From an uncultured Lachnoclostridium sp. (GTDB taxonomy: Bacteria; Bacillota; Clostridia; Lachnospirales; Lachnospiraceae), in the NCBI GenBank assembly GCA_946499505.1, contig CAMMSL010000006.1, positions 51,840 to 115,839 of the forward strand: a stretch of 64,000 bases of DNA, given 5' to 3'. The position numbers and the translations under genes were made by a program. Shown in pieces: positions 13,935-30,335 of the stretch. Each line of letters begins with the position of its first letter. Positions within the stretch are counted from its first letter, which is position 1. The notes under the pieces were generated by a model. That model ran no database searches, was not told the DNA's origin, and worked only from the letters and a program-made list of their open reading frames with translations.

Positions 13935-14227
13935 CTACAGTTGAGGAAGGAGCGGCATATGTAAAAGGGCACGGATGCGACGTGATCGTTGCCATCGGCG
14001 GAGGAAGCGTTATGGAATGCGCGAAAGCGATTGCGTTCCTGGGTGTAAATTCGGGAAATATCAATGACTATATTTTCAACCGGCTGACCAGCAATAAAGC
14101 CCTGCCAATCATCCTGATCCCCACTACATGCGGAACCAGATCGGAAGGTAACGGGTTTGCGGTTCTCACCAATCCCGAGAATGGAGACAAAAAAGCTCTC
14201 CGATGTAATGCAATTATGAGCGGGTGA
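13899..14227 (+). pseudogene. Iron-containing alcohol dehydrogenase fragment
   Basis: About 109 codons, from LFDKVTQNTLTTTVEEG through the nucleotide-binding GGGSVMECAKAIA to PTTCGTRSEGNGFAV. These are the middle of the dinucleotide-binding domain of iron-type dehydrogenases. Both the N-terminal 60 or so residues and the whole metal-binding C-terminal domain are missing, so no activity is possible. An ATG at 13982-14013 exists but is internal. It is not a simple copy of the intact dehydrogenase at 21638, whose matching motif reads GGGSVCDYAKAVS. Confidence 0.75.
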
Positions 14228-14541
14228 TCCGGGACGAGAATTCTTTTGCCTTCTTTGTTCTGGATGAGGGAGAGTATAAAGGATTCTGCCACGGAGATTA
14301 TTTTGACACGTTCTGGATGTCCGGCAGAACCTGTTATATATCCAGTCTCATAACGAATGAAAAAGATCGGGGAAAAGGATACGGCAGAGCACTGGTGGAT
14401 CATGCCCTGCAGCTGGCCCGCCGGGAAAGATGCAAGGCAGTGATACTGGACTCCGGATTCCCAAGAGAGCAGGCGCACAGATTTTATGAGAAATACGGGT
14501 TTGAAAAGAGCTGTTACGGATTTGAGCTTGAATTAAAATGA
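14209..14541 (+). pseudogene. GNAT acetyltransferase, N-terminally truncated
   Basis: The frame encodes the core of a GNAT N-acetyltransferase: FVLDEGEYKGF, then the acetyl-CoA loop RGKGYGRAL, then HRFYEKYGFEKS. GNAT proteins normally have 30-50 residues before this core. Here an in-frame TAA at 14206 and the fragment of the dehydrogenase lie directly upstream. A GTG at 14224 could start a 105-residue protein, so a short product cannot be excluded, but no ribosome site was seen. Confidence 0.65.
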
Positions 14542-14599
14542 TAGAAGACAGATAAGTTTGATCGGCAAGAGTGGATATAATTTTGAGATTATATAAAAA

Positions 14600-14659
14600 A
14601 TAACTATATAAAAAGATTAAATATAAATATTTGCTATTTAATAATATCGGTGTTAGAGT
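14600..14659 (+). promoter_or_regulatory. Promoter of the GH3 gene with shared 34-bp upstream element (copy A)
   Basis: A 34-bp AT-rich element (14600-14633, beginning ATAACTAT and ending TATTTG) runs into the -35 box TTGCTA (14631-14636). TAGAGT (14654-14659) follows after 17 bp. The same element precedes the dehydrogenase gene at 21537 (32 of 34 identical) and the 28024 operon at 27891. This fits an activator site next to the -35 box. Confidence 0.7.
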
Positions 14660-14736
14660 GGGATCAGATAGAACAATGACCGGCCATGATATCAAAATGA
14701 AAAGCCGCCTTCAGGCGGTCTCAGGAGGAAAGAGAA

Positions 14737-17700
14737 ATGTTACAATGGTTAATCGATCTGCTGACACCGATTTTTACAAGTATGGGCGTCAGCGAAGTTG
14801 ATGTGCAGACGTATGTAAACAGTCTGAGCGGGTATATCTATGCGATATTGGGAAGCTTTGTCCTTATGATCGCAGTGATGATCGCTGCACATTTTATTGT
14901 GAAAAAGGGAACCCGGCACGTGGTGAGATGGAGCGCGGGCGTGGCGTGGGTGCTCATCGTGGCAGTACTTGCCAATGTAATCTGCTTTGGCCCCATGTAT
15001 AATAACGTTGCGATCATATTGAACAGTCAGGCACAGGTGTCCGAGGAGTCCAGAGAGAATTCCCGCGATGTAATCCGCGAGGTGGGCGAAGAGGGGATGG
15101 TTCTTCTGGAGAATGACGGCGTTCTTCCACTGTCTTCCGATACAAAACGCATCAATGTGTTCGGATGGGCGTCCATCGCCCCGATCTTCGGCGGCACGGG
15201 ATCCGGATCCTCAGATACATCGAGCTGCGTCGGAATTCTGCAGTCCCTTCAGGACGCAGGTTATGAGACAAATGATACACTGACAGATATGTATACCGAA
15301 TACAGAGAAACCCGTATCCTTCCGGAGATGGGAAATGTAGGATATACGGACTGGACACTTCCGGAACCGACAGCCGATTATTATACAGATGAGATCATGC
15401 AGGAGGCGGAGGAGTTTTCTGATACTGCAGTTGTCGTTCTTGGACGCTCCGGCGGTGAGGGACAGGATCTGCCGACGGATATGAATGCGGTCATCAACGG
15501 TACATACGACATCCGGGATGAAGTGGCAGACGGAAACGACCAGTATAACTATTTTAACTGTAATTACGACAATAACGGAGATTATGATGATTTTGACGAA
15601 GGAGAGCACTATCTGGAACTGTCCAATACCGAAGAGGCAATGCTGGATATTGTGTGTAATGCATTTGACGATGTGATCGTGGTCATCAACTCCAATAACG
15701 CCATGGAACTTGGCTGGGTAGAGAATTATGATTCCATCGGCGCGCTCATTCTGGCACCGGGAACCGGCGAGACCGGTATGGCTGCACTGGGTGAGATTAT
15801 TAAAGGAGACGTAAACCCGTCAGGAAAGACTGTAGACACTTATGTCTATGACCTGACAGCTGCACCGAATTATAACAATACAGGAAACTTTGCGTACAAT
15901 AATGTCGAAGACCTCAAAGAGGCCTTTACAGAGGCAGACGATGCCTATCAGGGGAATATTGCCTTTGTCAATTATGTGGAAGGTATATATCTGGGATATA
16001 AGTTCTATGAGACAGCAGCAGAAGAAGGACTGATCCAGTATGACGATGTGGTCCAGTATCCGTTCGGCTACGGGCTGAGCTATACAAGCTTTACACAGGA
16101 GATCAGTAACTTTACAGATAACGGGGACAGTATTTCCATGGACGTTACTGTGACCAACACAGGAGATGTGGCCGGAAAGAGCGCCGTAGAGATTTATTTT
16201 ACACCTCCGTACAACAACGGAGGCATTGAAAAGGCCTCCGTCAATCTCATCGCATTAGGTAAGACAGAGACTCTGGAGCCGGGGGCAAGCGAGACGGTAT
16301 CCTTTACGATCAATAAAGAAGATATGGCGTCCTATGATTCTACAGGAATCAAGACGGAAAATGGCGGATATGTACTGGAGGCGGGAGACTATACGGTCTC
16401 TGTACGGTCAGATTCCCATACCGTGATGGATGAGGCATCTTTCCATGTAGATGAAGATATCAACTATAGCACAGAAGGACGGACAAGCGACGATCAGACA
16501 GCGGTCAATCAGTTCCAGGATTATTCCGCGGGAAATGTGACATATCTGTCAAGAGCAGACGGATTTGCCAATTATGAGGAGGCAACTGCAGCGCCTGCTG
16601 AGGAAGCCTGTGTGATGGACGATGAGACAAGAGCGGCAGTCATGGAAAAATCTGTAGCATACTATGATCCTACACTGTATGACAATCCGGACGATGAAAT
16701 GCCGGTAACCGGTGCGGACAACGGCCGCAGACTCTCTGAACTGACAGGAAAGGATTACGATGACCCGATGTGGGATGAACTTCTGGATCAGCTTACCGTA
16801 GAAGAGATGAGTGATCTGGTCAATCTGGGAGGCTTCCAGACCGTGGCGGTTGATTCTGTCGGAAAAGTGGCAACATTGGACAGTGACGGAACAAGCGGAC
16901 TGAATGACTGGGTGACAGGCGTATACGGAACTCCGTTTCCTGTGGAGGTGCTGATCAGCCAGACATGGAATCCGGAGCTGGCTCAGAGAACAGGAAGCGC
17001 CATCGGTGCAGAATATGCGGACTGCCATATTTACGGATGGTACGGCCCTGCTATGAATATGCACAGAACGGCATTCTGCGGACGTAACTTTGAGTATTAT
17101 TCCGAGGACGGCATACTCTCCGGAGTGATCGCGTCTGCTGAGATCAACGGAGCGGCAGAGCATGGTGTGTATGCATATATCAAGCATTTTGCCCTGAATG
17201 ATCAGGAAACAAACAGATGCAGTTTCCTGCTGACCTACTCCGGCGAGCAGGCAATCCGTGAAATCTATTTGAAACCATTTGAAATGTGTGTAAAGAACTT
17301 TACAGGAGAGTCTCTTGCCGTAATGTCTTCCTTTATCTGGATCGGGACAAAATACAGCGGTTCTAATCCGTACCTGCTGAATAATGTGCTCCGTGGAGAG
17401 TGGGGATTCAGAGGCATGGTACTGACAGACTGGGATGGCTCCTACGGCTACCAGCTTACCGATGACTGTGTGAGAAATGGAAACGACGCAATGCTGGGAT
17501 TCAATTCCTACGAATCAAATGTACTGACGGACACCGATTCAGCGACACTGGTGAAGGCTTTGCGGCAGGCATCAAAAAATGTCATGTACACAGTGGCAAA
17601 CAGCGGAAACTACACGGTTGATAATCCGGATGAGGCAGGTCTGGATAACATGACTCTGACCTTTATCGGTATCGATGCGGCGATCGCCGTGGTACTGATC

Positions 17701-17772
17701 GCGGTTGAACTGATCGTGGTTCTGCGGTGGAGAAAGAAGAGAGCAAAGGCGCCTTCCACTGAAAGCAGATAA
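14737..17772 (+). CDS. Membrane-anchored, domain-swapped GH3 beta-glucosidase-like enzyme
   Basis: A 1011-residue glycoside hydrolase family 3 protein. Two transmembrane helices (about 33-55 and 66-84) precede the extracellular part, and a third (about 982-1000) is followed by a basic tail. The usual C-terminal domains come first: the alpha/beta sandwich (about 105-450) and a fibronectin-III-like domain (about 465-560). The TIM-barrel domain comes last (from LDQLTVEEMSDLVNLGG, about 680) and holds the nucleophile in VLTDWDG (about Asp898). This order is a circular permutation of classical GH3. Its promoter carries the shared 34-bp element. The natural substrate is not visible. Confidence 0.85.
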   Translation: MLQWLIDLLTPIFTSMGVSEVDVQTYVNSLSGYIYAILGSFVLMIAVMIAAHFIVKKGTRHVVRWSAGVAWVLIVAVLANVICFGPMYNNVAIILNSQAQVSEESRENSRDVIREVGEEGMVLLENDGVLPLSSDTKRINVFGWASIAPIFGGTGSGSSDTSSCVGILQSLQDAGYETNDTLTDMYTEYRETRILPEMGNVGYTDWTLPEPTADYYTDEIMQEAEEFSDTAVVVLGRSGGEGQDLPTDMNAVINGTYDIRDEVADGNDQYNYFNCNYDNNGDYDDFDEGEHYLELSNTEEAMLDIVCNAFDDVIVVINSNNAMELGWVENYDSIGALILAPGTGETGMAALGEIIKGDVNPSGKTVDTYVYDLTAAPNYNNTGNFAYNNVEDLKEAFTEADDAYQGNIAFVNYVEGIYLGYKFYETAAEEGLIQYDDVVQYPFGYGLSYTSFTQEISNFTDNGDSISMDVTVTNTGDVAGKSAVEIYFTPPYNNGGIEKASVNLIALGKTETLEPGASETVSFTINKEDMASYDSTGIKTENGGYVLEAGDYTVSVRSDSHTVMDEASFHVDEDINYSTEGRTSDDQTAVNQFQDYSAGNVTYLSRADGFANYEEATAAPAEEACVMDDETRAAVMEKSVAYYDPTLYDNPDDEMPVTGADNGRRLSELTGKDYDDPMWDELLDQLTVEEMSDLVNLGGFQTVAVDSVGKVATLDSDGTSGLNDWVTGVYGTPFPVEVLISQTWNPELAQRTGSAIGAEYADCHIYGWYGPAMNMHRTAFCGRNFEYYSEDGILSGVIASAEINGAAEHGVYAYIKHFALNDQETNRCSFLLTYSGEQAIREIYLKPFEMCVKNFTGESLAVMSSFIWIGTKYSGSNPYLLNNVLRGEWGFRGMVLTDWDGSYGYQLTDDCVRNGNDAMLGFNSYESNVLTDTDSATLVKALRQASKNVMYTVANSGNYTVDNPDEAGLDNMTLTFIGIDAAIAVVLIAVELIVVLRWRKKRAKAPSTESR

Positions 17773-17810
17773 TTATACGGCTGAAAAGCGGCCATAATCG
17801 TGATGGACAA

Positions 17811-17860
17811 AATAAGAGTACTCTGGACGTTGAAAAACGCGCCGGAGTACTCTTATTTTT
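17811..17860. terminator. Terminator hairpin after GH3, copy 1 of a conserved hairpin
   Basis: AATAAGAGTACTCTGG pairs with CCGGAGTACTCTTATT (15 of 16), with an inner CGTT-GAAA-AACG hairpin capping the stem, and TTTTT follows. The reverse strand also has an A/T-rich flank. A hairpin with the same core (GGACGTTGAAAA then ACG and GCCGG) recurs at 23516-23573. Confidence 0.8.
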
Positions 17861-17993
17861 GCGATAAGAACGAATTTGAAAAATAAAGAACAAATTTAGA
17901 ATACAACACGGCATTTGTAAAATAAAATAGGCTCATAAATAACGAGAAGCAAACAGCCAGTATAAGTATTAGATGAACAGGAGGGATAACAAC

Positions 17994-18893
17994 ATGAGTC
18001 TGATGCAGAAGATTATGTTTCAGATTATAAAGCGCGGACAGACTTCTTATGATCCGTCCCGTCCGCGTGATTATGCCGCGAACCGTGCGGCGGAGGAAAA
18101 AGGGGTTCCGCAGAAACTGCCAAAAGGAATTATGAGTCGGGAAGTAATGCTGGACAGTATAGAGGGTGAACTTCTTTATTCGGACAATAATCCGAAAAAT
18201 AAGTGTATTATGTACATCCATGGCGGGGGTTTTGTGACTGGAAGCACGAAAACAGTAAGGCCGCTGACCAGCGAACTGGTGAAACAGACGGGATACAACC
18301 TGTACAGCATCCGGTACAGACTGGCGCCGGAGCACCCGTTTCCCGCAGCGCCGGAGGACTGTTTTCGGGCATATTGTGCACTGGAAAAGAAATACGGCGG
18401 AGACGGTATTGTCATTATGGGAGAAAGCGCCGGTGCCACACTGGCGCTGGCTACGGTTCTGCGGGCAAAAGATGAGGGGATTTCCCTTCCGGCATGCGCC
18501 GTTGTGATTGCTCCGGCAGTACAGTTTGATCAAGAATTTCCAAGCCACAGGAACAATCTGGCAACAGACTGTATGGTCTCCAATCTGACGGAAGAGGTAC
18601 GCGCAACCTACCTGATTTCGGATGATCCGTCAGTTATCCGTAACCCGTATGCAGCACCATATTATGGCGATTATACGGGCTTCCCGCCGACACTGATCAT
18701 TGCATCGGATTCGGAAGTGTTAAGAGACGATTCCGTATTCCTGCATGAGAAAATGAAACGGTCAGAAGCAGAGAGCCGTCTTCATCTTTATCATAACATG
18801 ATGCATATTTTTCCTGTTGCACCGTCTCTTCCGGAGAGTAAAGAAGCACTTAGGGAGATCAGGAAATTTATCAGTGAAAAGTCAAAAAAGTAA
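17994..18893 (+). CDS. Alpha/beta-hydrolase of the hormone-sensitive-lipase family
   Basis: A 299-residue esterase/lipase. It has the HSL oxyanion motif HGGGFVTGS, the segment YRLAPEHPFPAAPEDC and the nucleophile elbow GESAGATLAL. The acid and histidine are likely in ASDSEVLRDDS and MMHIFPV. There is no signal peptide. The start at 17994 has AGGAGGG upstream; the in-frame ATG at 17973 overlaps that site. It is followed 27 bp later by the GH78 gene and may remove acyl groups from the glycans that enzyme handles. Confidence 0.85.
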   Translation: MSLMQKIMFQIIKRGQTSYDPSRPRDYAANRAAEEKGVPQKLPKGIMSREVMLDSIEGELLYSDNNPKNKCIMYIHGGGFVTGSTKTVRPLTSELVKQTGYNLYSIRYRLAPEHPFPAAPEDCFRAYCALEKKYGGDGIVIMGESAGATLALATVLRAKDEGISLPACAVVIAPAVQFDQEFPSHRNNLATDCMVSNLTEEVRATYLISDDPSVIRNPYAAPYYGDYTGFPPTLIIASDSEVLRDDSVFLHEKMKRSEAESRLHLYHNMMHIFPVAPSLPESKEALREIRKFISEKSKK

Positions 18894-18920
18894 TTGTTAC
18901 AGGGGAAGGCAGGTGACACT

Positions 18921-21533
18921 ATGATTATTAAAGATTTTCAAGTCAATCATATGTCGAGACCGGTGGGAATCGACGGACATGGACTCAGGCTGACGTGGAA
19001 ACTAGGAGATGGTAAAAAGCAGAGTGCATTTACAATAAAGGTTACAGATGAGACGGGGAACATACTTGAAGAAGCCGATATTAAGGGTGACAGGATGTTT
19101 TATGTCCTTAGGGAAGATATCCCCGAGCGGACAAAAGCTAAAGTGACACTTATTGTCCGCGATGAAAGGGGAGTAGAAAGTCTTCCTGCATCAATTGCCG
19201 TTGTGACGGGAATTGAGAAAACAAAATGGAAAGCGGACTGGATCCTTCCGGAACTGTCTGAAGAGAAAACCGATAGCAGACGGGCCTCCTATGCGGGAAA
19301 GGTGTTTGAACTGTCGAATGACCAGATTGCCGAGGCAGAAGAAAAGGGGGCATATCTGTATGCTACTTGCCATGGTATCATGAATATCTATATTAACGGA
19401 CAGGAGATCACGGACCGCCAGTTTATGCCCGGTACGCAGCAGTACGATAAACGCCTGATGGTGGAAACTCTGGACATACAGCGCTTTCTGAGAGTCGGAG
19501 AAAACGAGATCCTTGTGTCACTCGGGGACGGGTGGTATCGGGGTTCTATGGGGATGGATCAGGAAAAAAATATCTACGGAACGGATCTGGCCCTTCTGCT
19601 TCAGCTGGAGATCGGGAAAAAAACAGTCGTGAAAACAGATGAGACATGGATGGCGACACAGGATGGTCCGATCGGAAGGAACGATTTTATGGCGGGAGAG
19701 GAATATGACGCGAGAAAAGAGTTTACTGGAAAAAGCGAAGGCTGCATGGCATGCTTCCATGGAGTAAAGAAAAAGAATTTTGGCTTTGATAATCTGATCT
19801 ATACAGATACGGTTCCGATCATCCCGCACGAAATATTTCAAGCGGAGGAGATCATTACGCCGGACGGTGATAAGGTACTTGATTTCGGACAGAATCTTGT
19901 AGGGTATGTCTCTTTTGAATTTGAGGGAACTGCAGGACAGAAGCTGAGTCTGATTCACGGAGAAACACTGGATCTGAACGGGAATTTTACGACAGTGAAT
20001 TTCCAGAATCCGAAGAAACCGGTCAAGCAGCAGATAGATTATATTTGCAGAGATGGAAAGAATAAATACCATCCGACAAAAACCTATATGGGATTCCGGT
20101 ATGTAAAAGTGATCGCTGATTTCGAGATAGATCCTGCTGATTTTAAAGCCGTAGCTCTGTATTCTGACATAAAGGTGACGGCGTCGTTTGCCTGCGGTGT
20201 GCCGGAGGTTGAGAAACTTTTTGAAAATGCTCTGTGGTCTATGAAAGGAAATTTCATAGATGTGCCGACTGACTGCCCCACACGGGAGAAGTCAGGGTAT
20301 TCCGGGGACTGTCAGGTGTATGTCCATACGGCAATGTATCTTATGGACTGTTATTGCGTATATGCAAAATGGCTCCGGGAACAGGCTGCGGGACAGTATG
20401 AGGACGGCGTCGTTCCCCAGATCGCACCGAAGGACAGCGCTCCGGGAGTAAAGCAGAAAATGGGGCCTATGATGAGCCTTGACGGAGGAATCGGATGGTC
20501 TGATGCATTTGAAATCGTGCCGTACCGTCTAATGAAGCGGTACGGAGATGACACTCTGATCCGGGAGTATTATGAAGCTCTTCGGAGATGGACGCAATAT
20601 GAAATCAGGCGGGCGGAAAAGACAAGATGGAGCAATCGGAGACTCCTTACTAAAGAGCATCGTAAATATATGATCGATACCGGATGGATGTGGGGAGAAT
20701 GGCTGGAACCGGGCCAGGATACGGTAAGTTATATGAGCAATCTGGTCATGAACGGTGACCCGGAGACAGGAACCGCCTTTTTCTACACCAATCTGAGATA
20801 TATGGAAGAGTTTGCAAAGCTCCTCGGAAAACACGAGGATAGGCAGTACTATCGAAATCTGGCAGAGAAAGCCAGAGACGCATACAGGGCATTCTTCCTT
20901 GAAGACGGAAGGATAACAGAAAAGAAGAGGCAGTGCCGTTTTGTGCGTCCGATCGCCCACGATCTTCTTACAGAGAGTGAAAAGGTGAGAGCTGCTGCTG
21001 ATCTTGCCAGACTTGTTGATGAAAACAATAACCATTTGAATACAGGATTTCTGACAACCCATGAATTGAATCGCAGCCTGAGCCGGTTCGGACAAAATAG
21101 AAAAGCGTATGATCTTCTCCTGCAAAAGGAAAAACCGGGCTGGCTGTATTCCGTAATGAAAGGATGCACGACCATTCCGGAAAGCTGGGACTGCTTTGAT
21201 GAAAACGGAACTCCGTCAGATCCCTTCAATCATTATTCTTACGGCACAATTGCCGGCTGGCTGATGGACTGTGTGTGCGGAATAAATGTAGAAGAAGGAA
21301 AGATCAGGATTCAGCCCTATCCGGATCCATGTCTGGGATATGCCAAAGCAGTATATGATTCTCCGTACGGGACAATCATTTCCGGCTGGGAATACCGACA
21401 GGACAAAATAGTTTATCACATTGAGATTCCGGCGAATATGATGGCGGAAATCCTGATCGAGGGACTGGAAAAAAGAACGGTGGATACAGGAATATATGAT
21501 CTTGAAATATGTCTGAGTGGTTCGAATGGATAG
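18921..21533 (+). CDS. Alpha-L-rhamnosidase (GH78)
   Basis: An 870-residue GH78-type enzyme that removes terminal alpha-L-rhamnose. N-terminal beta-sandwich domains include the family pattern GWYRGSMGMD. The alpha/alpha-barrel catalytic domain carries DVPTDCPTREKSGYSGDCQV (about 445-465), where the GH78 general acid normally sits, and later PESWDCFDENGTPS and NHYSYGTIAGWL. There is no signal peptide, so it should be cytoplasmic and act on imported rhamnosides. ATG 18921 was chosen over the TTG at 18894. It probably forms an operon with the HSL esterase. Confidence 0.88.
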   Translation: MIIKDFQVNHMSRPVGIDGHGLRLTWKLGDGKKQSAFTIKVTDETGNILEEADIKGDRMFYVLREDIPERTKAKVTLIVRDERGVESLPASIAVVTGIEKTKWKADWILPELSEEKTDSRRASYAGKVFELSNDQIAEAEEKGAYLYATCHGIMNIYINGQEITDRQFMPGTQQYDKRLMVETLDIQRFLRVGENEILVSLGDGWYRGSMGMDQEKNIYGTDLALLLQLEIGKKTVVKTDETWMATQDGPIGRNDFMAGEEYDARKEFTGKSEGCMACFHGVKKKNFGFDNLIYTDTVPIIPHEIFQAEEIITPDGDKVLDFGQNLVGYVSFEFEGTAGQKLSLIHGETLDLNGNFTTVNFQNPKKPVKQQIDYICRDGKNKYHPTKTYMGFRYVKVIADFEIDPADFKAVALYSDIKVTASFACGVPEVEKLFENALWSMKGNFIDVPTDCPTREKSGYSGDCQVYVHTAMYLMDCYCVYAKWLREQAAGQYEDGVVPQIAPKDSAPGVKQKMGPMMSLDGGIGWSDAFEIVPYRLMKRYGDDTLIREYYEALRRWTQYEIRRAEKTRWSNRRLLTKEHRKYMIDTGWMWGEWLEPGQDTVSYMSNLVMNGDPETGTAFFYTNLRYMEEFAKLLGKHEDRQYYRNLAEKARDAYRAFFLEDGRITEKKRQCRFVRPIAHDLLTESEKVRAAADLARLVDENNNHLNTGFLTTHELNRSLSRFGQNRKAYDLLLQKEKPGWLYSVMKGCTTIPESWDCFDENGTPSDPFNHYSYGTIAGWLMDCVCGINVEEGKIRIQPYPDPCLGYAKAVYDSPYGTIISGWEYRQDKIVYHIEIPANMMAEILIEGLEKRTVDTGIYDLEICLSGSNG

Positions 21534-21536
21534 GAA

Positions 21537-21596
21537 ATAACTATATAAAATGATTAATTATAAATATTTGAAATATAATCTTCTCCGTTATACAAT
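21537..21596 (+). promoter_or_regulatory. Promoter of the alcohol dehydrogenase gene with shared 34-bp element (copy B)
   Basis: The element at 21537-21570 differs from that at 14600-14633 at only two positions. It runs into TTGAAA (21568-21573), and TACAAT (21591-21596) follows after 17 bp. Half-sites ATAACTA and TAATTAT (11 bp apart) give partial dyad symmetry, as expected for a LysR-type site. Confidence 0.75.
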
Positions 21597-21637
21597 AATT
21601 ACAGAAAAAGATAACAGAAAAGGAGCTGAAAATAAAA

Positions 21638-22807
21638 ATGCTTGGAAATTTTGAATACTGTAATCCGACGAAACTTTATTTTGGAGAGGATTCACTGAAT
21701 TACTTAAATACGGAACTTCCGAAATACGGAGACAATGTAGTTTTGATCTACGGAGGCGGTTCTATCAAAAAGAACGGAATCTACGACGACGTATGCAGGA
21801 TCCTGAAAGACAACGGGAAGAATGTGGCGGAGATCTCCGGTGTAATGCCAAATCCGACTCTTGAGAAGCTGTATGAAGGCGTAGAGATCGCAAGAAATCA
21901 TCATGCAGACTTTCTTCTTGCCGTAGGCGGCGGCTCTGTCTGCGATTATGCGAAGGCAGTATCGGTTTCTGTAAACTGTGAGGAGGATCCGTGGGAGAAG
22001 TATTATCTCCGCTTTGAAGAACCGGACTGCGAGACCCTGCCGGTGGGATGTGTTCTGACGATGGTGGGAACCGGATCAGAGATGAACGCGGGAGCGGTTA
22101 TTACAAACCATGAGTCAAAGCTGAAGATCGGCCATGTCTTTGCGGATGAGAAGATCATGCCAAGATTTTCTATCCTGAATCCGAAGTATACGCTGACACT
22201 GCCTCATTATCAGATGACAGCAGGGATTTATGATATCTTTAACCATATCTGTGAGCAATATTTTTCCGGAGAGGACGACAATACAAGCGATTATATCAGT
22301 GAAGGCTTGATGCGCTCCCTCCTTCATTCCAGTCGGATCGCCAATAAAGATCCGCAGAATTATGAGGCCCGGAGCAACATCATGTGGACCGCTACATGGG
22401 CGTTGAATACGTTAGTTTCCCGGGGAAAATCGACAGACTGGATGGTTCACATGATCGGGCAGTCTGTAGGTGCTTATACCAATGCAACCCATGGCATGAC
22501 GCTGGCAGCGGTTTCCCTGCCTTATTACCGTTATATCATGCCATATGGACTGGCGAAGTTCAAACGCTTTGCTGTCAATGTATGGGATGTGGATCCGGCA
22601 GGAAAGAGCGATGAGCAGATCGCAGAAGAAGGTCTCAAAGCCATGGAAAACTGGATGAAAGAACTTGGGCTTGTCATGAGTATTTCCGAACTGGGAGCGA
22701 CAGAAGAGATGCTTGACGGTATCGCAGACGGCACGCTGATCATGGAAGGCGGATATAAGGTTCTTGACCGGGATGAAGTGAAAGAGATCCTGAAAGAAAG
22801 TATGTAA
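21638..22807 (+). CDS. Iron-containing alcohol dehydrogenase (YqhD/BDH type)
   Basis: A 389-residue group III alcohol dehydrogenase, probably NADPH-dependent and reducing aldehydes. The N-terminal Rossmann-like domain has AVGGGSVCDYAKAVS, and the helical metal domain has the Asp and His ligands in GIYDIFNHICEQYF and in WMVHMIGQSVGAYTNATHGMTLA. The opening NPTKLYFGEDSL is typical of the butanol dehydrogenase/YqhD branch. AAAGGAG precedes the start by 13 nt. The promoter shares the 34-bp element, suggesting control by the LysR gene at 26932. Confidence 0.92.
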   Translation: MLGNFEYCNPTKLYFGEDSLNYLNTELPKYGDNVVLIYGGGSIKKNGIYDDVCRILKDNGKNVAEISGVMPNPTLEKLYEGVEIARNHHADFLLAVGGGSVCDYAKAVSVSVNCEEDPWEKYYLRFEEPDCETLPVGCVLTMVGTGSEMNAGAVITNHESKLKIGHVFADEKIMPRFSILNPKYTLTLPHYQMTAGIYDIFNHICEQYFSGEDDNTSDYISEGLMRSLLHSSRIANKDPQNYEARSNIMWTATWALNTLVSRGKSTDWMVHMIGQSVGAYTNATHGMTLAAVSLPYYRYIMPYGLAKFKRFAVNVWDVDPAGKSDEQIAEEGLKAMENWMKELGLVMSISELGATEEMLDGIADGTLIMEGGYKVLDRDEVKEILKESM

Positions 22808-22811
22808 GTCG

Positions 22812-22850
22812 AATAAGCCGGAGTGGAGGAAACTTCTGCTCCGGTTTATT
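22812..22850 (+). terminator. Hairpin after the alcohol dehydrogenase
   Basis: AATAAGCCGGAG (22812-22823) pairs with CTCCGGTTTATT (22839-22850) with one G-U pair and a 15-nt loop. The T-run is short, so termination may be partial. Confidence 0.55.
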
Positions 22851-22917
22851 CTGCACGGCCGCAGGCAATATGCTAAAAGACGCTGATTTTGAGTAATTTG
22901 AAAGGCGGTTCTGGATA

Positions 22918-23421
22918 ATGAAAAAATTTATTACTATGACACTTATTCTTGTGTGTACTCTTGCAGCAGTATTGTCAGGCTGCGCAGGCGGCAGGCAGAC
23001 AGGAAATCCTGAATCAGAATCGTCAGGAAATGATGCAGAAGGATTTGAGGAGGAAGATAATATGGGCAGAAAAATAATCGTGGAAGTGAACGGAAGCCGT
23101 TTTACTGCCACACTGGAGAATAATAAAGCAGCGGATGCTCTGGAGGAGATGGTGCAGGAGGAGCCGGTTACGGTACAGATGAGCGATTATGCCGGCTTTG
23201 AAAAGGTAGGATCTCTGGGAACGAGTCTCCCTGCAAGCAACAGACAGACAACAACTCATGCCGGAGATATCGTGCTGTATCAGGGCAATCAGATTGTGAT
23301 CTTCTATGGCTCTAATTCATGGAGTTATACAAGACTGGGGAAGATCGATGATCTGACCGGCTGGGAAGAGGCACTTGGAAACGGAGATGTGACTCTGACT
23401 CTTTCTCCGGAGAAAGCATAA
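22918..23421 (+). CDS. Lipoprotein with cyclophilin-like domain
   Basis: A 167-residue secreted lipoprotein. A lipobox (VLSGC, Cys about 21) ends the signal peptide, a Ser/Glu-rich linker covers about 25-45, and the rest resembles the bacterial cyclophilin-like fold family: GRKIIVEVNGSRFTATLENN, MSDYAGFEKVGSLG, DIVLYQGNQIVIFYGSNSW and LTGWEEAL. Proteins of this family often sit with aldo/keto reductases and alcohol dehydrogenases, as here. Prolyl isomerase activity is not established for them. It is probably anchored outside the membrane. Confidence 0.8.
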   Translation: MKKFITMTLILVCTLAAVLSGCAGGRQTGNPESESSGNDAEGFEEEDNMGRKIIVEVNGSRFTATLENNKAADALEEMVQEEPVTVQMSDYAGFEKVGSLGTSLPASNRQTTTHAGDIVLYQGNQIVIFYGSNSWSYTRLGKIDDLTGWEEALGNGDVTLTLSPEKA

Positions 23422-23515
23422 TAATATTTATGATAAGATTATGGCAGAGCCATAGCTTTTAGGAATGGCACAATATTTGTTTTAGGTATTTGAGACCTTA
23501 AGTATATTGGATTAA

Positions 23516-23573
23516 AATAATAAGAGTATGACAGGACGTTGAAAATACGGGCCGGCGTGCTCTTATTATTTTA
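23516..23573. terminator. Terminator hairpin, copy 2 of a conserved hairpin
   Basis: AATAATAAGAG (23516-23526) pairs with CTCTTATTATT (23560-23570). The middle carries GGACGTTGAAAA and GCCGGCG, the same core as at 17811-17860. It lies 95 bp after the lipoprotein gene and before the aldo/keto reductase. Confidence 0.65.
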
Positions 23574-23640
23574 CTAACAATGCAGTTTTGCGTATGGTGC
23601 AGGCTGAGCTTTTATATTTTTTGACAGGAGGAGATATAAA

Positions 23641-24744
23641 ATGGCAGATATGCAGTACAGAGAGCTCCCTCACGGCGGGGAGAAGATCAGTGTGATCGGT
23701 CTCGGGATGGGCTCCATCCACGAGGGAAGCGAAGCGGAGATTGAAGAGACGCTGAAGCTTGCCCTGGCGAGCGGTGTCGATTATTTTGACATGGCTGCTT
23801 CCGAGGCAAAGCCGTATCCGTGTTATGCGCGTGCTTTTGAGGGAAAACGGGAACAGGTTTATCTTCAGATGCACTTCGGCGCGGTGTATGACAGCGGAAA
23901 ATACGGCTGGACGAGAGACTTAAAGAAGATCAGAAAGACATTCGAGAGCCAGCTTTCCATGCTGCACACGGATTACACGGATATGGGATTCGTACATTGC
24001 ATCGATGAAGTGAGTGATTATGAGAAGATCATGTCTGGCGGAATCTGGGATTATATGAAGTCATTGAAGGAAAACGGAGTGATCCGTCATCTGGGACTGT
24101 CCTCCCATGACCCGGAGATCATCCGGCGGTTTCTGGATACGGGCCTGATCGATATGGTCATGTTCAGCATCAATCCGGCATACGACTATTCCACCGGCGA
24201 TTATGCCATTGGCACAGCTTCTGACAGGGGAAAACTGTACCGGGAGTGCGAGAGAGAGGGCGTTGGCATCTCTGTCATGAAGCCTTTCGGCGGCGGACAG
24301 CTTCTGAATGCGAAGACGTCGCCTTTTAAACAGGCTCTTACGAAAACGCAGTGTATCCGGTACGCTCTTGACCGTCCGGCAGTTCTCACGGTACTTCCGG
24401 GTGTGAGAAATTCACAGGATTTAAAGGATGTGTTGTCTTATTTAGACGCAACTGAGGAGGAACAGGACTACTCTGTGATCGGGCAGTTCACGCCTCAGAA
24501 TGCGGACGGGATCTGTGTGTACTGCAATCACTGCCAGCCTTGTCCGAAAGGGCTTAACGTGGGCATGATCAATAAGTACTATGACCTTGCCCTTGCCGGG
24601 GACGAGATGTCAAAGGGACATTATGATAAACTGGAAGTCAAAGCAGGTGAATGTATTCAGTGCGGTCACTGCGAATCACGCTGTCCGTTCCATGTAAAGC
24701 AGGAGGCAAGGATGCAGGAGATCAGCAGGTATTTCGGTGAGTAA
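23641..24744 (+). CDS. Aldo/keto reductase with C-terminal 2x[4Fe-4S] ferredoxin domain
   Basis: A 367-residue fusion. Residues about 8-270 form the aldo/keto reductase barrel (VIGLGMGSIHEG, DYFDMAASEA, HLGLSSHD, MKPFGGG). The C-terminus has two cysteine clusters, CVYCNHCQPCP and CIQCGHCESRCPF, for two 4Fe-4S centres. Such proteins probably couple NAD(P)H or ferredoxin electrons to carbonyl reduction. The usual AKR catalytic Tyr region is altered (FDMAASEAKPYP). AGGAGGAG precedes the ATG. It overlaps the MATE gene that follows by 8 bp. Confidence 0.88.
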   Translation: MADMQYRELPHGGEKISVIGLGMGSIHEGSEAEIEETLKLALASGVDYFDMAASEAKPYPCYARAFEGKREQVYLQMHFGAVYDSGKYGWTRDLKKIRKTFESQLSMLHTDYTDMGFVHCIDEVSDYEKIMSGGIWDYMKSLKENGVIRHLGLSSHDPEIIRRFLDTGLIDMVMFSINPAYDYSTGDYAIGTASDRGKLYRECEREGVGISVMKPFGGGQLLNAKTSPFKQALTKTQCIRYALDRPAVLTVLPGVRNSQDLKDVLSYLDATEEEQDYSVIGQFTPQNADGICVYCNHCQPCPKGLNVGMINKYYDLALAGDEMSKGHYDKLEVKAGECIQCGHCESRCPFHVKQEARMQEISRYFGE

Positions 24745-26116
24745 TTGCAGCGTCAGCCGGAGAAACATCCAGCAGCGTCCGGGAGATTCCGGCTATGCGC
24801 AGATTTTAAGGACGCTGCTCTTTTTATCCATCCCCACAATCGTGGAAGAAGTACTTGCCACGCTGCTCCAGTACGTGGATACTGCAATGGTGGGACAGCT
24901 CGGCGAACAGGCGACGGCTTCGGTAAGCATCACTACGAATGTGACGTGGCTTGTCAACAGTGTATCGGGAGCCGTCGGTACGGCAGTCCTTGTCCTGCTC
25001 TCAAAAGCGGCGGGAGCAGGAGATGAAAAACAGGTGAAGAAACTGTCCCAGCAGACGCTGTTTCTGGCTCTTGCATCCGGGGTGCTGCTCGAGATACTGT
25101 CACTCATCCTGTGCCCGTATATTCCGATATGGATGGGAGCGGAGCCGGCAATCCGGGATCAGGCTTCCCGCTATTTCTTTATTATCAGTGTGCCGCTGGT
25201 GTTCCGCTATGTAAGCACGGTTCTTGGTGCGGCGCTCCGGGCGGTGCAGGATACAAAGACGCCGATGCTTATCAGCCTTGCAGCCAACGGACTGAATATT
25301 GTGATGAACTATTTTTTGATCTATCCTGCGAATCTGGGAGTGGACGGCGCTGCAATTGCCTCGGCTATATCCTATGCGCTTTCCGGTATCCTGATGTTCA
25401 TATCCTGCAGGAAAAACAGCCAGCTTTGCTGGAAATTACGGGAGTTCTCGGTGGACAGAAAACTGCTGGCAGAGTGTGCGGATGTGGGAATGCCGGTACT
25501 TGGGACCAGCATGGTGAGCTGCTTCGGATATGTGGTGTTCGCCGGCCTTGTCTCGGGAATGGGGACAACAGTGTTTGCAGCCCATTCCATCGCGGTGACG
25601 GCTGAGACCATTTTTTATGTGCCGGGTTACGGGCTTAGGTCTGCCGCGTCCACCCTGATCGGAAATGCCAGAGGCGAAGGAAATATGAAGAAGCTGAAGA
25701 CCGTGGGGATCTTAAGCGTGCTGCTCACAGTTGCTGTCATGTGTGTGAGCGGTCTTGTGCTGTTTTTCGGCGCACATCTGCTCATGAGCCTTTTTACCCC
25801 AAGCCGACCGGTGGTGGATCTGGGAGCCGAGATGCTCCGGCTTGTAGCGTTATCAGAACCGTTCTTCGGACTTATGGTCGTACTGGAAGGAATTTTCTAC
25901 GGCCTTGGCCGGACAAGATATTCGTTTATCGTAGAGACAGTGGGAATGTGGTGTGTGCGTATCCTGTTTACGTTTCTCTGCGTGCGGTACTGGGGGCTGG
26001 GACTTCGCGCTGTCTGGTACTGTATGATCGCGGACAATGTGTGCAAGGCAGTTCTCTTTGCAGTCCCGTTTCTGACAAAAAGAAGCCGGGTGAGACAGTG
26101 GCTTGGCTGTCCCTAA
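24737..26116 (+). CDS. MATE family efflux transporter
   Basis: A 459-residue MATE-type exporter with about twelve transmembrane helices, opening with LFLSIPTIVEEVLATLLQYV and then DTAMVGQLG. The GTG start at 24737 lies inside the last codons of the aldo/keto reductase, so translation is likely coupled. The ribosome site is weak. It is not close in sequence to the MATE proteins at 587 or 48210. Substrate unknown. Confidence 0.88.
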   Translation: MSNCSVSRRNIQQRPGDSGYAQILRTLLFLSIPTIVEEVLATLLQYVDTAMVGQLGEQATASVSITTNVTWLVNSVSGAVGTAVLVLLSKAAGAGDEKQVKKLSQQTLFLALASGVLLEILSLILCPYIPIWMGAEPAIRDQASRYFFIISVPLVFRYVSTVLGAALRAVQDTKTPMLISLAANGLNIVMNYFLIYPANLGVDGAAIASAISYALSGILMFISCRKNSQLCWKLREFSVDRKLLAECADVGMPVLGTSMVSCFGYVVFAGLVSGMGTTVFAAHSIAVTAETIFYVPGYGLRSAASTLIGNARGEGNMKKLKTVGILSVLLTVAVMCVSGLVLFFGAHLLMSLFTPSRPVVDLGAEMLRLVALSEPFFGLMVVLEGIFYGLGRTRYSFIVETVGMWCVRILFTFLCVRYWGLGLRAVWYCMIADNVCKAVLFAVPFLTKRSRVRQWLGCP

Positions 26117-26200
26117 ATCTGTGGTATAAAATCCGTGTTATAATAGATCGCGGATCTGTTTTGTATCAAGACTGAAAGCAGAAGAAAGGACTGGAACATT

Positions 26201-26995
26201 ATGAAGACAGAACAGAACATCATACTGGACTTTTCCCATATTTACCCGGAAGATATCGAGAAACAGGTAAAAGGGCTGAAACGCATCGACCTGACGGATA
26301 TCAGCGGCACAGACATGTACTGTACGGAAGAGGCGGCGGCAGAGATCAGAAAGCGGCTGGCGCCTTACAGTCCCTGCGGGATCCATTTTCTGGACAGCGG
26401 GAATTATCATTACGCTACGAAGTTTTTTATAGAGAAGATCAGGGATCCTTTCGCACTTGTGCTGTATGACAATCACAGCGATATGCAGCCGCCGGAGTTC
26501 CCAGGGATGATAAGCTGCGGAGACTGGGCGGGCGATGTGATCCGCACCAATCCCTGCCTGAAACAGCTGATCCTGGCAGGGCCTGAACAGAAAACAATCG
26601 ACGAGATACCGTCAGTGTTTCATAAAAAACTGATCTGCATCAGCAGAGAGGTGATAGAGGAGAAGAGAGTACACGAAAAGATTCCGCTGATCGATATGGA
26701 TCTTCCCATCTATATTTCAATTGACAAAGATGTCCTTGACCGGAGCAGTGCCCGGACCAACTGGGATCAGGGTGAGATGCCTTTCCCTGTTCTGGAGAAA
26801 CTGCTTCTGGAAGTCTTTGAGCATCAGCGGGTCATCGGCGCAGATATCTGTGGTGAGTGCACCCTGCTGGAACCTTTCCGTGAGCTCATGGCAGATGAAG
26901 AAATTAATAAGATCACGAATGACCGGCTGTATCACTTTCTGAATGACTGCCTGAGGACCTCGAGAAATTTTTCCACGGGTTTTGAAAAGACCTGA
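26201..26995 (+). CDS. Arginase/deacetylase-superfamily protein
   Basis: A 264-residue protein with the metal ligands of the arginase fold in the right order: a His in LDSGNYHYAT, LYDNHSDMQ for the D-x-H-x-D motif, and YISIDKDVLD for the S-x-D-x-D motif. The full set of six ligands seems present, so hydrolysis of a guanidino or amide bond is plausible, but the substrate-binding loops differ from true arginase and agmatinase. Its last 64 bp overlap the convergent LysR gene. Confidence 0.75.
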   Translation: MKTEQNIILDFSHIYPEDIEKQVKGLKRIDLTDISGTDMYCTEEAAAEIRKRLAPYSPCGIHFLDSGNYHYATKFFIEKIRDPFALVLYDNHSDMQPPEFPGMISCGDWAGDVIRTNPCLKQLILAGPEQKTIDEIPSVFHKKLICISREVIEEKRVHEKIPLIDMDLPIYISIDKDVLDRSSARTNWDQGEMPFPVLEKLLLEVFEHQRVIGADICGECTLLEPFRELMADEEINKITNDRLYHFLNDCLRTSRNFSTGFEKT

Positions 26996-27822
26996 TATTT
27001 TTTCCAGATGATATTCATTTTATTCTCCAGTCTGGGATTCAGAGGCCGAAAGCACAGATTACTGTCGCCGGTCGTGTTAATGATCTTGTCAAGCCCGATC
27101 GCGTATCCAAGTCCTTCATCAACGAGAAGGGAAGCGTTGAAGATCAGGTTGTAGGTGGCGGCGATGTTGAGCTGGTCCGGCTCCCTTCTGAGCCACTGGG
27201 TAAGAGTGCCGCCCTGAGATTCCTGCTGGGAGAGGATCAGAGGGACATCGTACAGATCGCCGGGAACGATGGATTCCTTCTCTGCCAGAGGAGAATCCTT
27301 ACGCATGAGGACGCCCCAGATATCATGGTAGGGCATTTCGAGGACATTATATTTTGTCAGGTCTACATCCCCGAAAACAATCCCGAAGTCGATAAGTCCT
27401 TTATCCAGATATTCGGATACAAGAGATGAATTGCCGCTGGAGAGATGATAGCTGATGCCCGGATAGCGGTTCTGAAGTTTTTTCGCAGCTTTTGCGATCA
27501 GACGGATGCCGTCTGTCTCGCCGGTGCCGATGTAGACGTCTCCAATGACAACATCATCACTCATTTTTATTTCGGTTTCTGCTTTTTTTACAAGGTCGAG
27601 TATCTCCTCGGCGCGTTTGCGCAGGATCATCCCTTCTTCGGTCAGCGTGACTTTCCGGGTGCCTTTTGTCCCACGGATGAAGAGCTGCTTTCCCAATTCC
27701 TGTTCGAGATTCTTGATCTGTGTGGAGAGAGTTGGCTGGGAGAGATGAAGAGACTCTGCGGCGTGTACGATACTCTGTTCTCTTGCGATCGCAAGAAAAT
27801 AATTAAGGACACGTAATTCCAT
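26932..27822 (-). CDS. LysR family regulator, likely activator of the 34-bp-element regulon
   Basis: A 296-residue LysR-type regulator: helix-turn-helix at residues 1-60 (EQSIVHAAESLHLSQPTLST, then QIKNLEQELG) and an effector domain at about 90-290. It is divergent from the DUF3737 operon; the shared intergenic region holds two AACTAT half-sites. The same 34-bp element occurs before the GH3 and dehydrogenase genes, which makes this protein the best candidate for binding all three; that link is inference. The inducer may be an aldehyde or thiol stress signal. Confidence 0.88.
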   Translation of the reverse strand: MELRVLNYFLAIAREQSIVHAAESLHLSQPTLSTQIKNLEQELGKQLFIRGTKGTRKVTLTEEGMILRKRAEEILDLVKKAETEIKMSDDVVIGDVYIGTGETDGIRLIAKAAKKLQNRYPGISYHLSSGNSSLVSEYLDKGLIDFGIVFGDVDLTKYNVLEMPYHDIWGVLMRKDSPLAEKESIVPGDLYDVPLILSQQESQGGTLTQWLRREPDQLNIAATYNLIFNASLLVDEGLGYAIGLDKIINTTGDSNLCFRPLNPRLENKMNIIWKKYQVFSKPVEKFLEVLRQSFRK

Positions 27823-27864
27823 GATAAGTACCTCCGGTTTCTATTACATACATTGATTTTAGTT

Positions 27865-27950
27865 AACTATAGCATGAAAATAAATAGGTTTCAACTATGG
27901 AAATACATTACAACAAAGTATTTGCTATTCAAAATATCCGGTGCTAGACT
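27865..27950 (+). promoter_or_regulatory. LysR-divergent promoter region with 34-bp element (copy C)
   Basis: AACTAT occurs at 27865-27870 and 27893-27898. The element at 27891-27924 keeps AACTAT, AAA, ATTA and the final TATTTG at the same positions as copies A and B. It ends in TTGCTA (27922-27927), and TAGACT (27945-27950) follows after 17 bp. Confidence 0.7.
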
Positions 27951-28023
27951 GTATAAGGAAAGATAAGATGACAGCCGAAGCAGGCTTAAAACATTTGCCT
28001 TATATGTGAAAGGACGGACTGAT

Positions 28024-28254
28024 ATGAAACCGGATTCCAGAGAGAATCTCATCCAAAATCTGAAAGATGCAGGCTGCTGTGAAGAAATGATACATGATTT
28101 TATGGAACATTTTGATGAAAAAGACATTGACCGCCAGATTACCATGCTTGAGCTTCACAGAGATGAACTGCTGGACAATGTACACTGCGAAGAGAGAAAG
28201 ATATCCTGTCTGGACTATCTGCTCTATCAGATTAAAAAGGATTATATAGCATAA
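28024..28254 (+). CDS. Small helical protein of unknown function
   Basis: A 76-residue acidic, helical protein with a CC pair near residue 17 and two more cysteines (HCEERKISCLDYL). AAAGGA lies 9 nt before ATG 28024; a GTG at 28006 is upstream of that site. It is the first gene of the LysR-adjacent operon. Similar small proteins with the ending LDYLLYQIKK are common next to LysR/DUF3737 genes in Firmicutes, but I know no function. Confidence 0.75.
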   Translation: MKPDSRENLIQNLKDAGCCEEMIHDFMEHFDEKDIDRQITMLELHRDELLDNVHCEERKISCLDYLLYQIKKDYIA

Positions 28255-28273
28255 ATGAAAGGAAGAGATCATA

Positions 28274-29152
28274 ATGAATGAGAAGAAAGAAATCAGACAA
28301 CAGTATTTAACAGGGGAACGCCCGCTGTTTATGGGAAAAGATCTTAAAATATATGATACGGTCTTTGATGACGGGGAGTCACCTCTCAAGGAGAGCCGGA
28401 ATATTGAACTGTATGACAGTATGTTCAAGTGGAAATATCCGCTCTGGTACAGCAGAAACATACTTGCCGAGAACTGTACATGGTTTGAGATGGCGCGGGC
28501 AGGCGTATGGTACACGGATAATATTACGGTGAGAAACGCCATGATCGAGGCGCCTAAGAATTTCAGACGATGCCGCAGCGTTGTGCTGGAAAACGTAGAT
28601 TTCCCGAATGCACAGGAGACGCTCTGGAGCTGTGAACAGGTGAAAATGGACCGGGTTACTGCAAAGGGTGATTATTTTGCCATGAACTGCACGGATATGG
28701 TGCTCAATGACTTTAAACTGGACGGCAATTATTCCTTCGACGGAGCAAAGAATGTAGAGATACACAATGCAAAACTGCTCTCTAAGGACGCGTTCTGGAA
28801 CAGTGAAAACGTGACGGTTTACGATTCCTTTATCTCAGGAGAATATCTTGGCTGGAATGCGAAGAACCTGACTCTTGTCAACTGTACGATCGAAAGTCTG
28901 CAGGGCATGTGTTATGTCGACAATCTCGTGATGAAGAACTGCAAGCTGATCAATACGACACTTACTTTCGAATATTCTACAGTGGACGCGGATGTCCACG
29001 GAAAGATCGACAGTGTGTTAAACCCGTCAGGAGGCACGATCCGCGCAGAGCATATCGGTGATCTCATTATTGAAAAGGATAAGATCGACCCGTCAAAGAC
29101 AAGGATCATCTGCAGTGATATCGACCATGAGAAGCAGTGTGCCTGTGCTTGA
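28274..29152 (+). CDS. DUF3737 family protein, right-handed beta-helix
   Basis: A 292-residue DUF3737 protein. It contains repeating short strands (KIYDTVFDDGESPLKESRNI, IELYDSMFKWKYPLWYSRN, ITVRNAMIEAPKNFRRCRS, and so on), spaced about 20 residues apart, as in a beta-helix. There is no signal peptide or membrane segment. The family often lies next to LysR regulators and redox genes but has no established function. It is 19 bp after the small gene and 16 bp before malY, in one operon. Confidence 0.85.
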   Translation: MNEKKEIRQQYLTGERPLFMGKDLKIYDTVFDDGESPLKESRNIELYDSMFKWKYPLWYSRNILAENCTWFEMARAGVWYTDNITVRNAMIEAPKNFRRCRSVVLENVDFPNAQETLWSCEQVKMDRVTAKGDYFAMNCTDMVLNDFKLDGNYSFDGAKNVEIHNAKLLSKDAFWNSENVTVYDSFISGEYLGWNAKNLTLVNCTIESLQGMCYVDNLVMKNCKLINTTLTFEYSTVDADVHGKIDSVLNPSGGTIRAEHIGDLIIEKDKIDPSKTRIICSDIDHEKQCACA

Positions 29153-29168: not shown

Positions 29169-30335
29169 ATGAAATATAATTTTGATGAAATGATCGACCG
29201 CAAAAATACCGGCTCGCTGAAATGGGATGTGCCGGACGGGGAGCTCCCCATGTGGGTAGCGGATATGGATTTCCGCACGGCTCCGGCCGTGACAGAAGCC
29301 ATTGCCGAGCGCGCGGCCCATGGAATATTCGGTTATACAGTGGTGCCGGACGAGTGGTATGAGGCATATCAGACATGGTGGGGCAGCCGGCATCACTTTG
29401 AGATAGAAAAAGACTGGCTTATCTTCTGTACAGGAGTCGTGCCTGCAATTTCCAGTATCGTCAGAAAGATGACCACTGTAGCTGAGAAAGTTGTTGTAAT
29501 GACGCCGGTATACAATATATTCTTCAACTCGATCTTGAACAACGGAAGAAATGTGCTTGAGAGCAGGTTGAAACTGGAAAACGGCGTCTATGAAGTCGAC
29601 TTTGGAGATCTGGAGGAAAAGCTTTCGGATCCTCAGGCGTCATTGCTCCTTCTGTGTAATCCGCAGAATCCGGCGGGAAGAATCTGGGATAGGAAGACGC
29701 TGGAGCGGATCGGTGATCTGTGCGTAAAGCATCACGTGCTTGTCCTCTCCGATGAGATCCACTGTGATCTCGTAAAACCGGGGATGGAGTATGTGCCGTT
29801 TGCCTCGGTCTCTGAAAACTGCAGGATGAACAGTATCACCTGTGTTGCCCCGACGAAAGCATTTAACATTGCAGGCATACAGACGTCCGCCGTGATCGTG
29901 CCGGACGAGACGATCCGCCATAAGGTCAACCGGGGCCTTAACACAGATGAAGTGGCGGAGCCCAATGTGTTTGCCGCCATAGCTCCGGTCGCCGCATTTA
30001 TGCACGGCGGAGAGTGGCTGGATGAATTGAATGCCTATCTGTGGCAGAACAGAAAGAGGGCGGAAGAGTACATTGACAGCGAGATTGAAAATGTAACCGC
30101 CATCCGTGGAGAAGCAACCTATCTGCTCTGGATCGACTGCCGGAAAGTGACAGAAGATTCCGATCAGCTCAGTGGATTTCTCCGGAAACAGACAGGCTTG
30201 TATGTGTCTTCCGGAGAAGAGTATCATAACGGGGACGGATTCCTGAGAATGAATCTGGCCTGCCCGAGAGCCCGTCTGGAAGACGGATTAAAAAGGCTAA
30301 AAGCCGGCATTGAGGCATACAGGGCAAATAAATAA
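29169..30335 (+). CDS. MalY/PatB-type C-S lyase aminotransferase
   Basis: A 388-residue fold-type I PLP enzyme close to the MalY/PatB cystathionine beta-lyases. The hallmarks are LPMWVADMDF near the N-terminus, GYTVVPDEWYEA, NPQNPAGRIW, SDEIHCDLV and the cofactor lysine in APTKAFNIAG. It would split cystathionine or S-conjugates to thiol, pyruvate and ammonia. It ends the operon that starts at 28024 and is followed by a terminator at 30560. Confidence 0.9.
   Translation: MKYNFDEMIDRKNTGSLKWDVPDGELPMWVADMDFRTAPAVTEAIAERAAHGIFGYTVVPDEWYEAYQTWWGSRHHFEIEKDWLIFCTGVVPAISSIVRKMTTVAEKVVVMTPVYNIFFNSILNNGRNVLESRLKLENGVYEVDFGDLEEKLSDPQASLLLLCNPQNPAGRIWDRKTLERIGDLCVKHHVLVLSDEIHCDLVKPGMEYVPFASVSENCRMNSITCVAPTKAFNIAGIQTSAVIVPDETIRHKVNRGLNTDEVAEPNVFAAIAPVAAFMHGGEWLDELNAYLWQNRKRAEEYIDSEIENVTAIRGEATYLLWIDCRKVTEDSDQLSGFLRKQTGLYVSSGEEYHNGDGFLRMNLACPRARLEDGLKRLKAGIEAYRANK

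Follow-up and report, generated by a model that had tools for sequence, protein, structure and literature searches.

A LysR-type operator at glycosidase, aldehyde reductase and C–S lyase promoters suggests a small regulon in an uncultured Lachnoclostridium

The window considered here is a stretch of 64,000 nucleotides from an uncultured Lachnoclostridium sp. (contig CAMMSL010000006.1; genome G000, 3,075,777 bases in 84 contigs), and the subject is a sequence element shared by several of its promoters, together with the gene for a LysR-type regulator. Element A (14593..14633, + strand) precedes genes for a GH3 glycosidase (14737..17772, +), an alpha/beta hydrolase (17973..18893, +; PF07859) and a bacterial alpha-L-rhamnosidase (18894..21533, +), the stop codon of the last lying within the left half-site of element B (21530..21570, +). 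B is followed by genes for an iron-containing alcohol dehydrogenase (Fe-ADH; 21638..22807, +) and a cyclophilin-like lipoprotein (22918..23421, +; PF18050), a recurrent partner in relatives. A diverged element, E (23452..23492, +), stands before genes for an aldo-keto reductase (by Pfam) with weak 4Fe-4S matches (23641..24744, +) and a MATE efflux transporter (24737..26116, +; TIGR00797 above cut-off). Element C (27884..27924, +) precedes genes for a small conserved protein without a Pfam or NCBIfam match (28006..28254, +), a DUF3737 protein (28274..29152, +) and a PatB/MalY-family C–S lyase (29169..30335, +; TIGR04350 above cut-off). The lysR gene (26932..27822, −) diverges from C. Its product has both the helix-turn-helix domain (PF00126, 4.6e-23) and the effector-binding domain (PF03466, 3.4e-22) of its family, and is the proposed binder of A–D, perhaps of E, and of its own promoter. 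Element D lies on another contig (G000:C7:89622-89662, −), 61 bp from a gene for a major facilitator superfamily (MFS) transporter.

An earlier, sequence-only reading had described three 34-mers of identical length (14600-14633, 21537-21570 and 27891-27924), all ending in the TTG of a −35 hexamer. The sequence agrees with this, as it does with a 17-bp spacer to a −10-like hexamer in A, B and C and with the position of C beside the divergent lysR gene; a recount returns the same identity between A and B, 32 of 34 bases. The flanks of these two copies are dissimilar (29 of 100 bases identical on the left and 34 of 100 on the right). The consensus of that reading has three matches in the window at up to three mismatches, against a mean of 0.02 in shuffled sequences. 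The true start of the element lies 7 bp further left, with ATAG in C and B and ATAA in A, which makes a unit of 41–46 bp.

Comparison of the copies reveals a fixed geometry: a 15-bp LysR-type box (ATAG-N7-CTAT) is followed by 23 bp, the −35 TTG, the 17-bp spacer and the −10. In A, the box ATAAAAAATAACTAT (14593-14607) leads to the hexamers TTGCTA-17-TAGAGT (−35 14631-14636, −10 14654-14659); in B, the box ATAGGAAATAACTAT (21530-21544) to TTGAAA-17-TACAAT (21568-21573, 21591-21596); in C, the box ATAGGTTTCAACTAT (27884-27898) to TTGCTA-17-TAGACT (27922-27927, 27945-27950); and in E, the box ATAGCTTTTAGGAAT to TTGAGA-17-TAAAAT (23490-23495, 23513-23518). The first base of the box is 38 bp from the −35, and the box centre is 54 bp from the −10 in all of A, B, C, D and E. 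LysR recognition sites typically lie near −65, with a second half near −35. If transcription is taken to start 12 bases downstream of the first base of the −10, the centre of the palindromic box falls near −66, and the AT-rich second half, made up of the middle and right part of the element, abuts the −35. The box also has the T-N11-A form described for LysR-type boxes (PMC6628147).

Box C overlaps a predicted lysR promoter, TTGAAA-17-TATAGT (27866..27894, −), which points at lysR and whose −35 (27894-27889) lies inside the box. With a match of 10 of 12 bases, it is among the five best sites in a consensus promoter scan of 14400-30500, which found 35 sites where 23.6 were expected. At its other end, lysR overlaps an arginase-like gene (26201-26995) convergently by 64 bp (26932-26995).

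In the genome of 3.08 Mb, a 27-base core of the element has four copies at no more than one mismatch (A–D), none at two and 40 at exactly three. A limit of three mismatches was rejected as a site criterion, since it gives 44 matches against 81 for the reversed control; matches at three mismatches are background, and thus only copies at up to one mismatch were counted. The full 41-mer likewise has four matches in G000, its reversed control none. The restriction to three promoters in the sequence-only reading therefore has to be relaxed: its three copies are real, but the genome-wide search adds one strong copy, D, and the window holds the diverged relative E.

The link between element and regulator emerges from comparison across genomes. 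The upstream regions of 58 LysR orthologs (51–98% identity) were taken from other genomes of the genus and family. At up to four mismatches, the 41-base pattern faces away from LysR in 30 of these regions, 39–167 bp from the lysR start, and occurs on the opposite strand in one; 29 of the elements facing away belong to the 45 orthologs of at least 60% identity. Because the 41-base pattern and the sites of a matrix built from 15 sites came via the window's own sequence, a further motif was derived from 29 LysR-upstream regions of other genera with no pattern supplied. This pattern-free motif reproduces the element on the opposite strand, and its best site faces away from LysR in 27 of the 29 regions. 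It scores C at 40.5, D at 35.6, E at 29.9, A at 25.4 and B at 20.2, the next site in the window reaching 7.7, while 60 random windows have a mean maximum of 6.0 and a largest value of 18.3. The 15-site matrix, less independent in that its sites from other genera were placed with the window's pattern, gives D 49.7 and C 47.9, with A at 40.4, B at 32.3 and E at 14.2; the highest of 100 random windows reaches 16.5. Across 45 loci of G000, which total 141,751 bases with some overlap among themselves or with the window, nothing apart from A–D and the reverse strand of A scores above 11.2 with this matrix; the set takes in the 13 remaining LysR-type loci of the genome (genes found at E <= 0.001), where no site exceeds that value.

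Presence of the element also follows presence of the regulator. Genus-wide, 45 matches were found in 58 genomes, against three for the reversed pattern. Among Mediterraneibacter genomes, 19 of the 27 that encode a LysR of at least 65% identity have a copy at up to two mismatches, compared with 3 of the 31 others (p=1.9e-6); the family sample gives 8 of 28 genomes with a LysR of at least 57% versus 2 of 172 (p=2.1e-6). Both identity cut-offs are the analyst's choice, neither p value is corrected for kinship, and the family count includes G105, in which the LysR is 67% identical over part of the protein. Taken together, the comparison supports the element as the operator type of this LysR subfamily. 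A possible operator of a sister LysR group (L007 1395 (-), L037 2202 (+), L197) has an ATAC-like box and ACAGG(T/C)ATTAGACAG replacing ATATAAGTATTTG.

A candidate determinant of the half-site lies in the recognition helix. In 41 of 59 LysRs (own included), those with a well-placed box, threonine at position 34 (SQPTLSTQ) goes with a CTAT or TTAT half-site in 27 of 27, whilst arginine there (..LSR..) goes with YTAT in none of 14, the half-sites being GCAT, GTAT or ATAT. BenM has the recognition helix PPLSRQ, i.e. arginine, and binds ATAC-N7-GTAT (PMC6628147, PMC11329422), in line with the arginine group here.

The genes behind the element are kept to different degrees. With a score line of 24 applied to 700 bp upstream, DUF3737 genes have the element in 11 of 13 LysR-bearing and 1 of 5 other genomes (p=0.02). 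The MFS transporter has it in seven other genus genomes (G206, G207, G222, G241, G242, G249 and G202), of which six have genes long enough to be sure and G202 only 61 residues before the contig end; the best NCBIfam matches of the transporter behind D are of the Cmx/CmrA and AraJ types, far below cut-off. Elsewhere, the first genes behind the element encode the small protein (often), Fe-ADH, MFS transporters, a short-chain dehydrogenase, the cyclophilin-like protein, an FMN reductase, a hexapeptide acetyltransferase and choloylglycine-hydrolase-like lipoproteins. The last are first behind the operator in two other genera (L100 1598-2722, L065 224-1378), a possible bile link. Small proteins of the family have some 70–100 residues, are helical by guess and share eight invariant columns in 22 aligned sequences (N17, G22, C23, R51, L55, C67, L68 and D69). 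The Fe-ADH is below the NCBIfam cut-off; its nearest solved relatives, 7w9x (3.7e-83), which we take to be YugJ, 1vlj (5.1e-78) and YqhD (1oj7, 1.2e-67), place its predicted activity with the YugJ/YqhD kind of aldehyde reductase. A short Fe-ADH-like fragment (13982-14227) lies before a GNAT gene, and genome G231 has a longer Fe-ADH-like gene at that place.

Element E is probably a further operator of this LysR. Its score lies inside the random range with the 15-site matrix and is the second in the window with the pattern-free motif. E and its promoter are conserved upstream of the aldo-keto reductase gene in L210 and L111 (63 and 58 of 75 bases), whereas the adjoining stretch on the left agrees in only 11 and 5 of 40 bases, and an E-like element stands before DUF3737 in G239. 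With GAAT as its right half-site, E could be a site of this LysR or of a sister whose helix differs.

One control sequence thus stands at these promoters of a gut bacterium and is kept beside the LysR gene in relatives, which most likely makes them one small regulon, covering the cleavage of sugars, the reduction of aldehydes, sulfur chemistry and export. We strongly favour the reading in which A, B, C and D are operators of the one LysR (26932-27822), with E probably another, and the regulator activates these units together. One LysR dimer would occupy the ATAG-N7-CTAT box, some 66 bp upstream of the predicted start, with another on the AT-rich half beside the −35. With a small-molecule inducer shared by the units, LysR would then act in the direction of activation on the GH3–hydrolase–rhamnosidase, Fe-ADH–cyclophilin-like and small protein–DUF3737–PatB/MalY units and on the MFS exporter. 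The dimer on box C would cover the −35 of lysR and so limit LysR synthesis; such a divergent, self-limiting layout is familiar for LysR regulators.

A number of observations weigh against this reading. At up to four mismatches, 28 of the 58 LysR-upstream regions are without the pattern, and copies at up to two mismatches are missing from 8 of the 27 LysR-bearing genus genomes (5 at up to three) and from 20 of the 28 in the family sample. Conversely, a copy is present in three genus genomes that have no LysR of at least 65% identity: G214, where the copy is at a contig end, G236, with a LysR fragment, and G241. The box of A is short of one conserved base, and B is barely above the highest random window with the pattern-free motif (20.2 versus 18.3). 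Fe-ADH genes have the element in just 4 of 11 LysR-bearing genomes, against 0 of 11 others (p=0.09), with one further locus off the contig and one (G215) at 23.8. Finally, 18 of the 59 LysRs were left out of the helix comparison for want of a well-placed box, and the switch of helix and half-site occurred once on the tree; it counts as one event, and covariation in the sense of many independent events was rejected.

The history of A and B bears on how many of the targets were recruited separately. In the near relative G231 (LysR 98% identical) there is a single element, its left flank like A in 58 of 60 bases and its right flank like B in 59 of 60. It is followed by Fe-ADH at 99% identity, and the 6.9-kb GH3–hydrolase–rhamnosidase block is absent. 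A and B are consequently best read as two copies of one element and not as separately recruited members. The block may have arrived with a second copy, or it may have been lost from G231 when A and B recombined; the two fit equally well, and the junction could be an assembly fault, the G231 assembly being incomplete (89% complete, 3% contamination). To the right of the element, the promoter of A agrees with the Fe-ADH promoter of G252 in 30 of 35 bases, which suggests that GH3 here seems to be driven from a captured Fe-ADH promoter. The GH3 protein itself has membrane segments at both ends by eye and a permuted domain order, in which the C-terminal GH3 domain precedes the N-terminal one. Among 30 GH3 loci examined out of 40 matches, the element (fewer than seven mismatches) stands before an intact GH3 gene in the window alone, and GH3 was rejected as a conserved target. 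Its tie to the LysR system is nevertheless recurrent, if often lost. GH3 remnants of 85–93% identity lie behind an element (four mismatches) beside a LysR of 79–82% identity in G202, G231, G248 and G210. In G179, of another genus, a GH3 of about 70% identity has LysR, element and Fe-ADH close by; one of similar identity in G256 neighbours the genes for DUF3737, PatB/MalY, the small protein and the cyclophilin-like protein, in a stretch without the element.

The same evidence admits a reading, to us rather unlikely, in which A and B are alike only through the 6.9-kb block, which arrived with or duplicated one element and left GH3 and rhamnosidase as passengers under the captured Fe-ADH promoter, with no functional part in the response. 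The single hybrid element of G231, the promoter of G252 and the lack of a close relative of the rhamnosidase in the genus (its relatives are just 40–44% identical, in 2 of 57 other genus genomes) are in its favour. Such an origin, however, accounts for A versus B but leaves C, D, E and the copies in other genomes unexplained, and both the recurrence of GH3 beside the LysR system and the equally fitting loss by recombination, or an assembly fault, count against it. It is distinctly less probable that only C, and perhaps D, is a working target, with A and B inherited from a time when a second LysR paralog ran Fe-ADH and GH3 and now weak or under another regulator. G202, G231 and G248 do have a LysR 79% identical to that of the window between a GH3 remnant and a Fe-ADH copy, and G231 and G248 carry a closer one besides (98 and 87%). 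The window genome has a single LysR of the group, the next being 40% identical, and A and B score below C and D in both searches. Yet that second LysR has an operator of this very type at its side (score 36 in G248, identical in G202 and G231), and a single LysR should therefore read both; A and B also retain box, spacing, −35 and −10. A last alternative, in which the copies are chiefly an AT-rich UP-element with its −35 region and make strong promoters without a specific regulator, accords with the AT-rich middle and right part adjoining the −35, but is highly improbable given a palindromic box 38 bp (first base) from the −35 that lies mostly on one strand beside LysR genes and varies with the recognition helix, and a core with just four copies in 3.08 Mb.

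The reading of one LysR regulon thus keeps part of the original proposal, that a single LysR activator ties three units. The element does go with this LysR subfamily across genomes; but two of the three promoters hold copies of one element, the MFS exporter is a fourth, strong candidate target and the aldo-keto reductase–MATE unit a probable fifth. At the three units themselves, the element is well kept at DUF3737, patchy at Fe-ADH and, at intact GH3, confined to the window. The target list would fit a response to reactive carbonyl or plant-derived aromatic compounds, and the inducer may itself be a reactive carbonyl or aromatic compound.

It is attractive, if decidedly speculative and improbable as a whole, to consider this operator as a portable 46-bp cassette, copied before glycosidase, carbonyl reductase, C–S lyase, flavin reductase, hydrolase and exporter genes as a plug for xenobiotic-response regulons in gut Lachnospiraceae, in which the aglycone freed from plant glycosides by GH3 and rhamnosidase would induce its own reduction and export. 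LysR regulators are numerous in these bacteria, but to our knowledge operators or targets have been established for few of them. Comparison makes the operator of one subfamily readable here, with a candidate recognition-helix position. The predicted target list places DUF3737, a nameless small protein and a C–S lyase under a control common to aldehyde reductases and exporters, whilst A and B exemplify the copying of an operator to a new block of genes and show how such regulons may grow. Searches of the open-access literature, a scope that makes them weak evidence of absence, found no paper on DUF3737 and none on a LysR regulon with an iron-containing alcohol dehydrogenase in Lachnospiraceae. 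They returned nothing related, by title and the start of the abstract, for a LysR regulon in Mediterraneibacter; for YqhD with a LysR and aldehydes in clostridia, the match concerned Zymomonas instead.

The LysR regulon itself would be new and the kind of system known, with the regulator family and the operator well supported by comparison. BenM/CatM of Acinetobacter, a LysR-type system with ATAC-N7-GTAT sites, provides the closest solved DNA-binding domain by sequence and shares the 15-bp box geometry and a second site reaching the −35 (PMC6628147). Here, by contrast, the half-site reads ATAG/CTAT, and none of the targets is an aromatic-degradation operon. Tandem repeats of ATAG-N7-CTAT are bound by OxyR (PMC8787470), whose half-site letters equal those in box C; the second repeat, however, is not kept here, with ATTnnATATAAGTAT-like sequence in its place. 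Identity with OxyR was rejected because the sole cysteine of the protein, Cys 257, leaves no OxyR cysteine pair; the two OxyR models among the best 25 NCBIfam rows are far below cut-off. Cys 257 is kept in 56 of 59 aligned LysR sequences, and the other cysteine-rich column of the alignment (20 of 59) is glycine in this LysR. A further parallel concerns YqhC, an AraC-type regulator. YqhC–YqhD–DkgA constitutes an aldehyde response of E. coli (PMC8262776, PMC6115493), in which a regulator induces a YqhD-type aldehyde reductase and an aldo-keto reductase, as is proposed here. In the present case the regulator is of the LysR type, and GH3, DUF3737, a C–S lyase and an exporter are added to the response.

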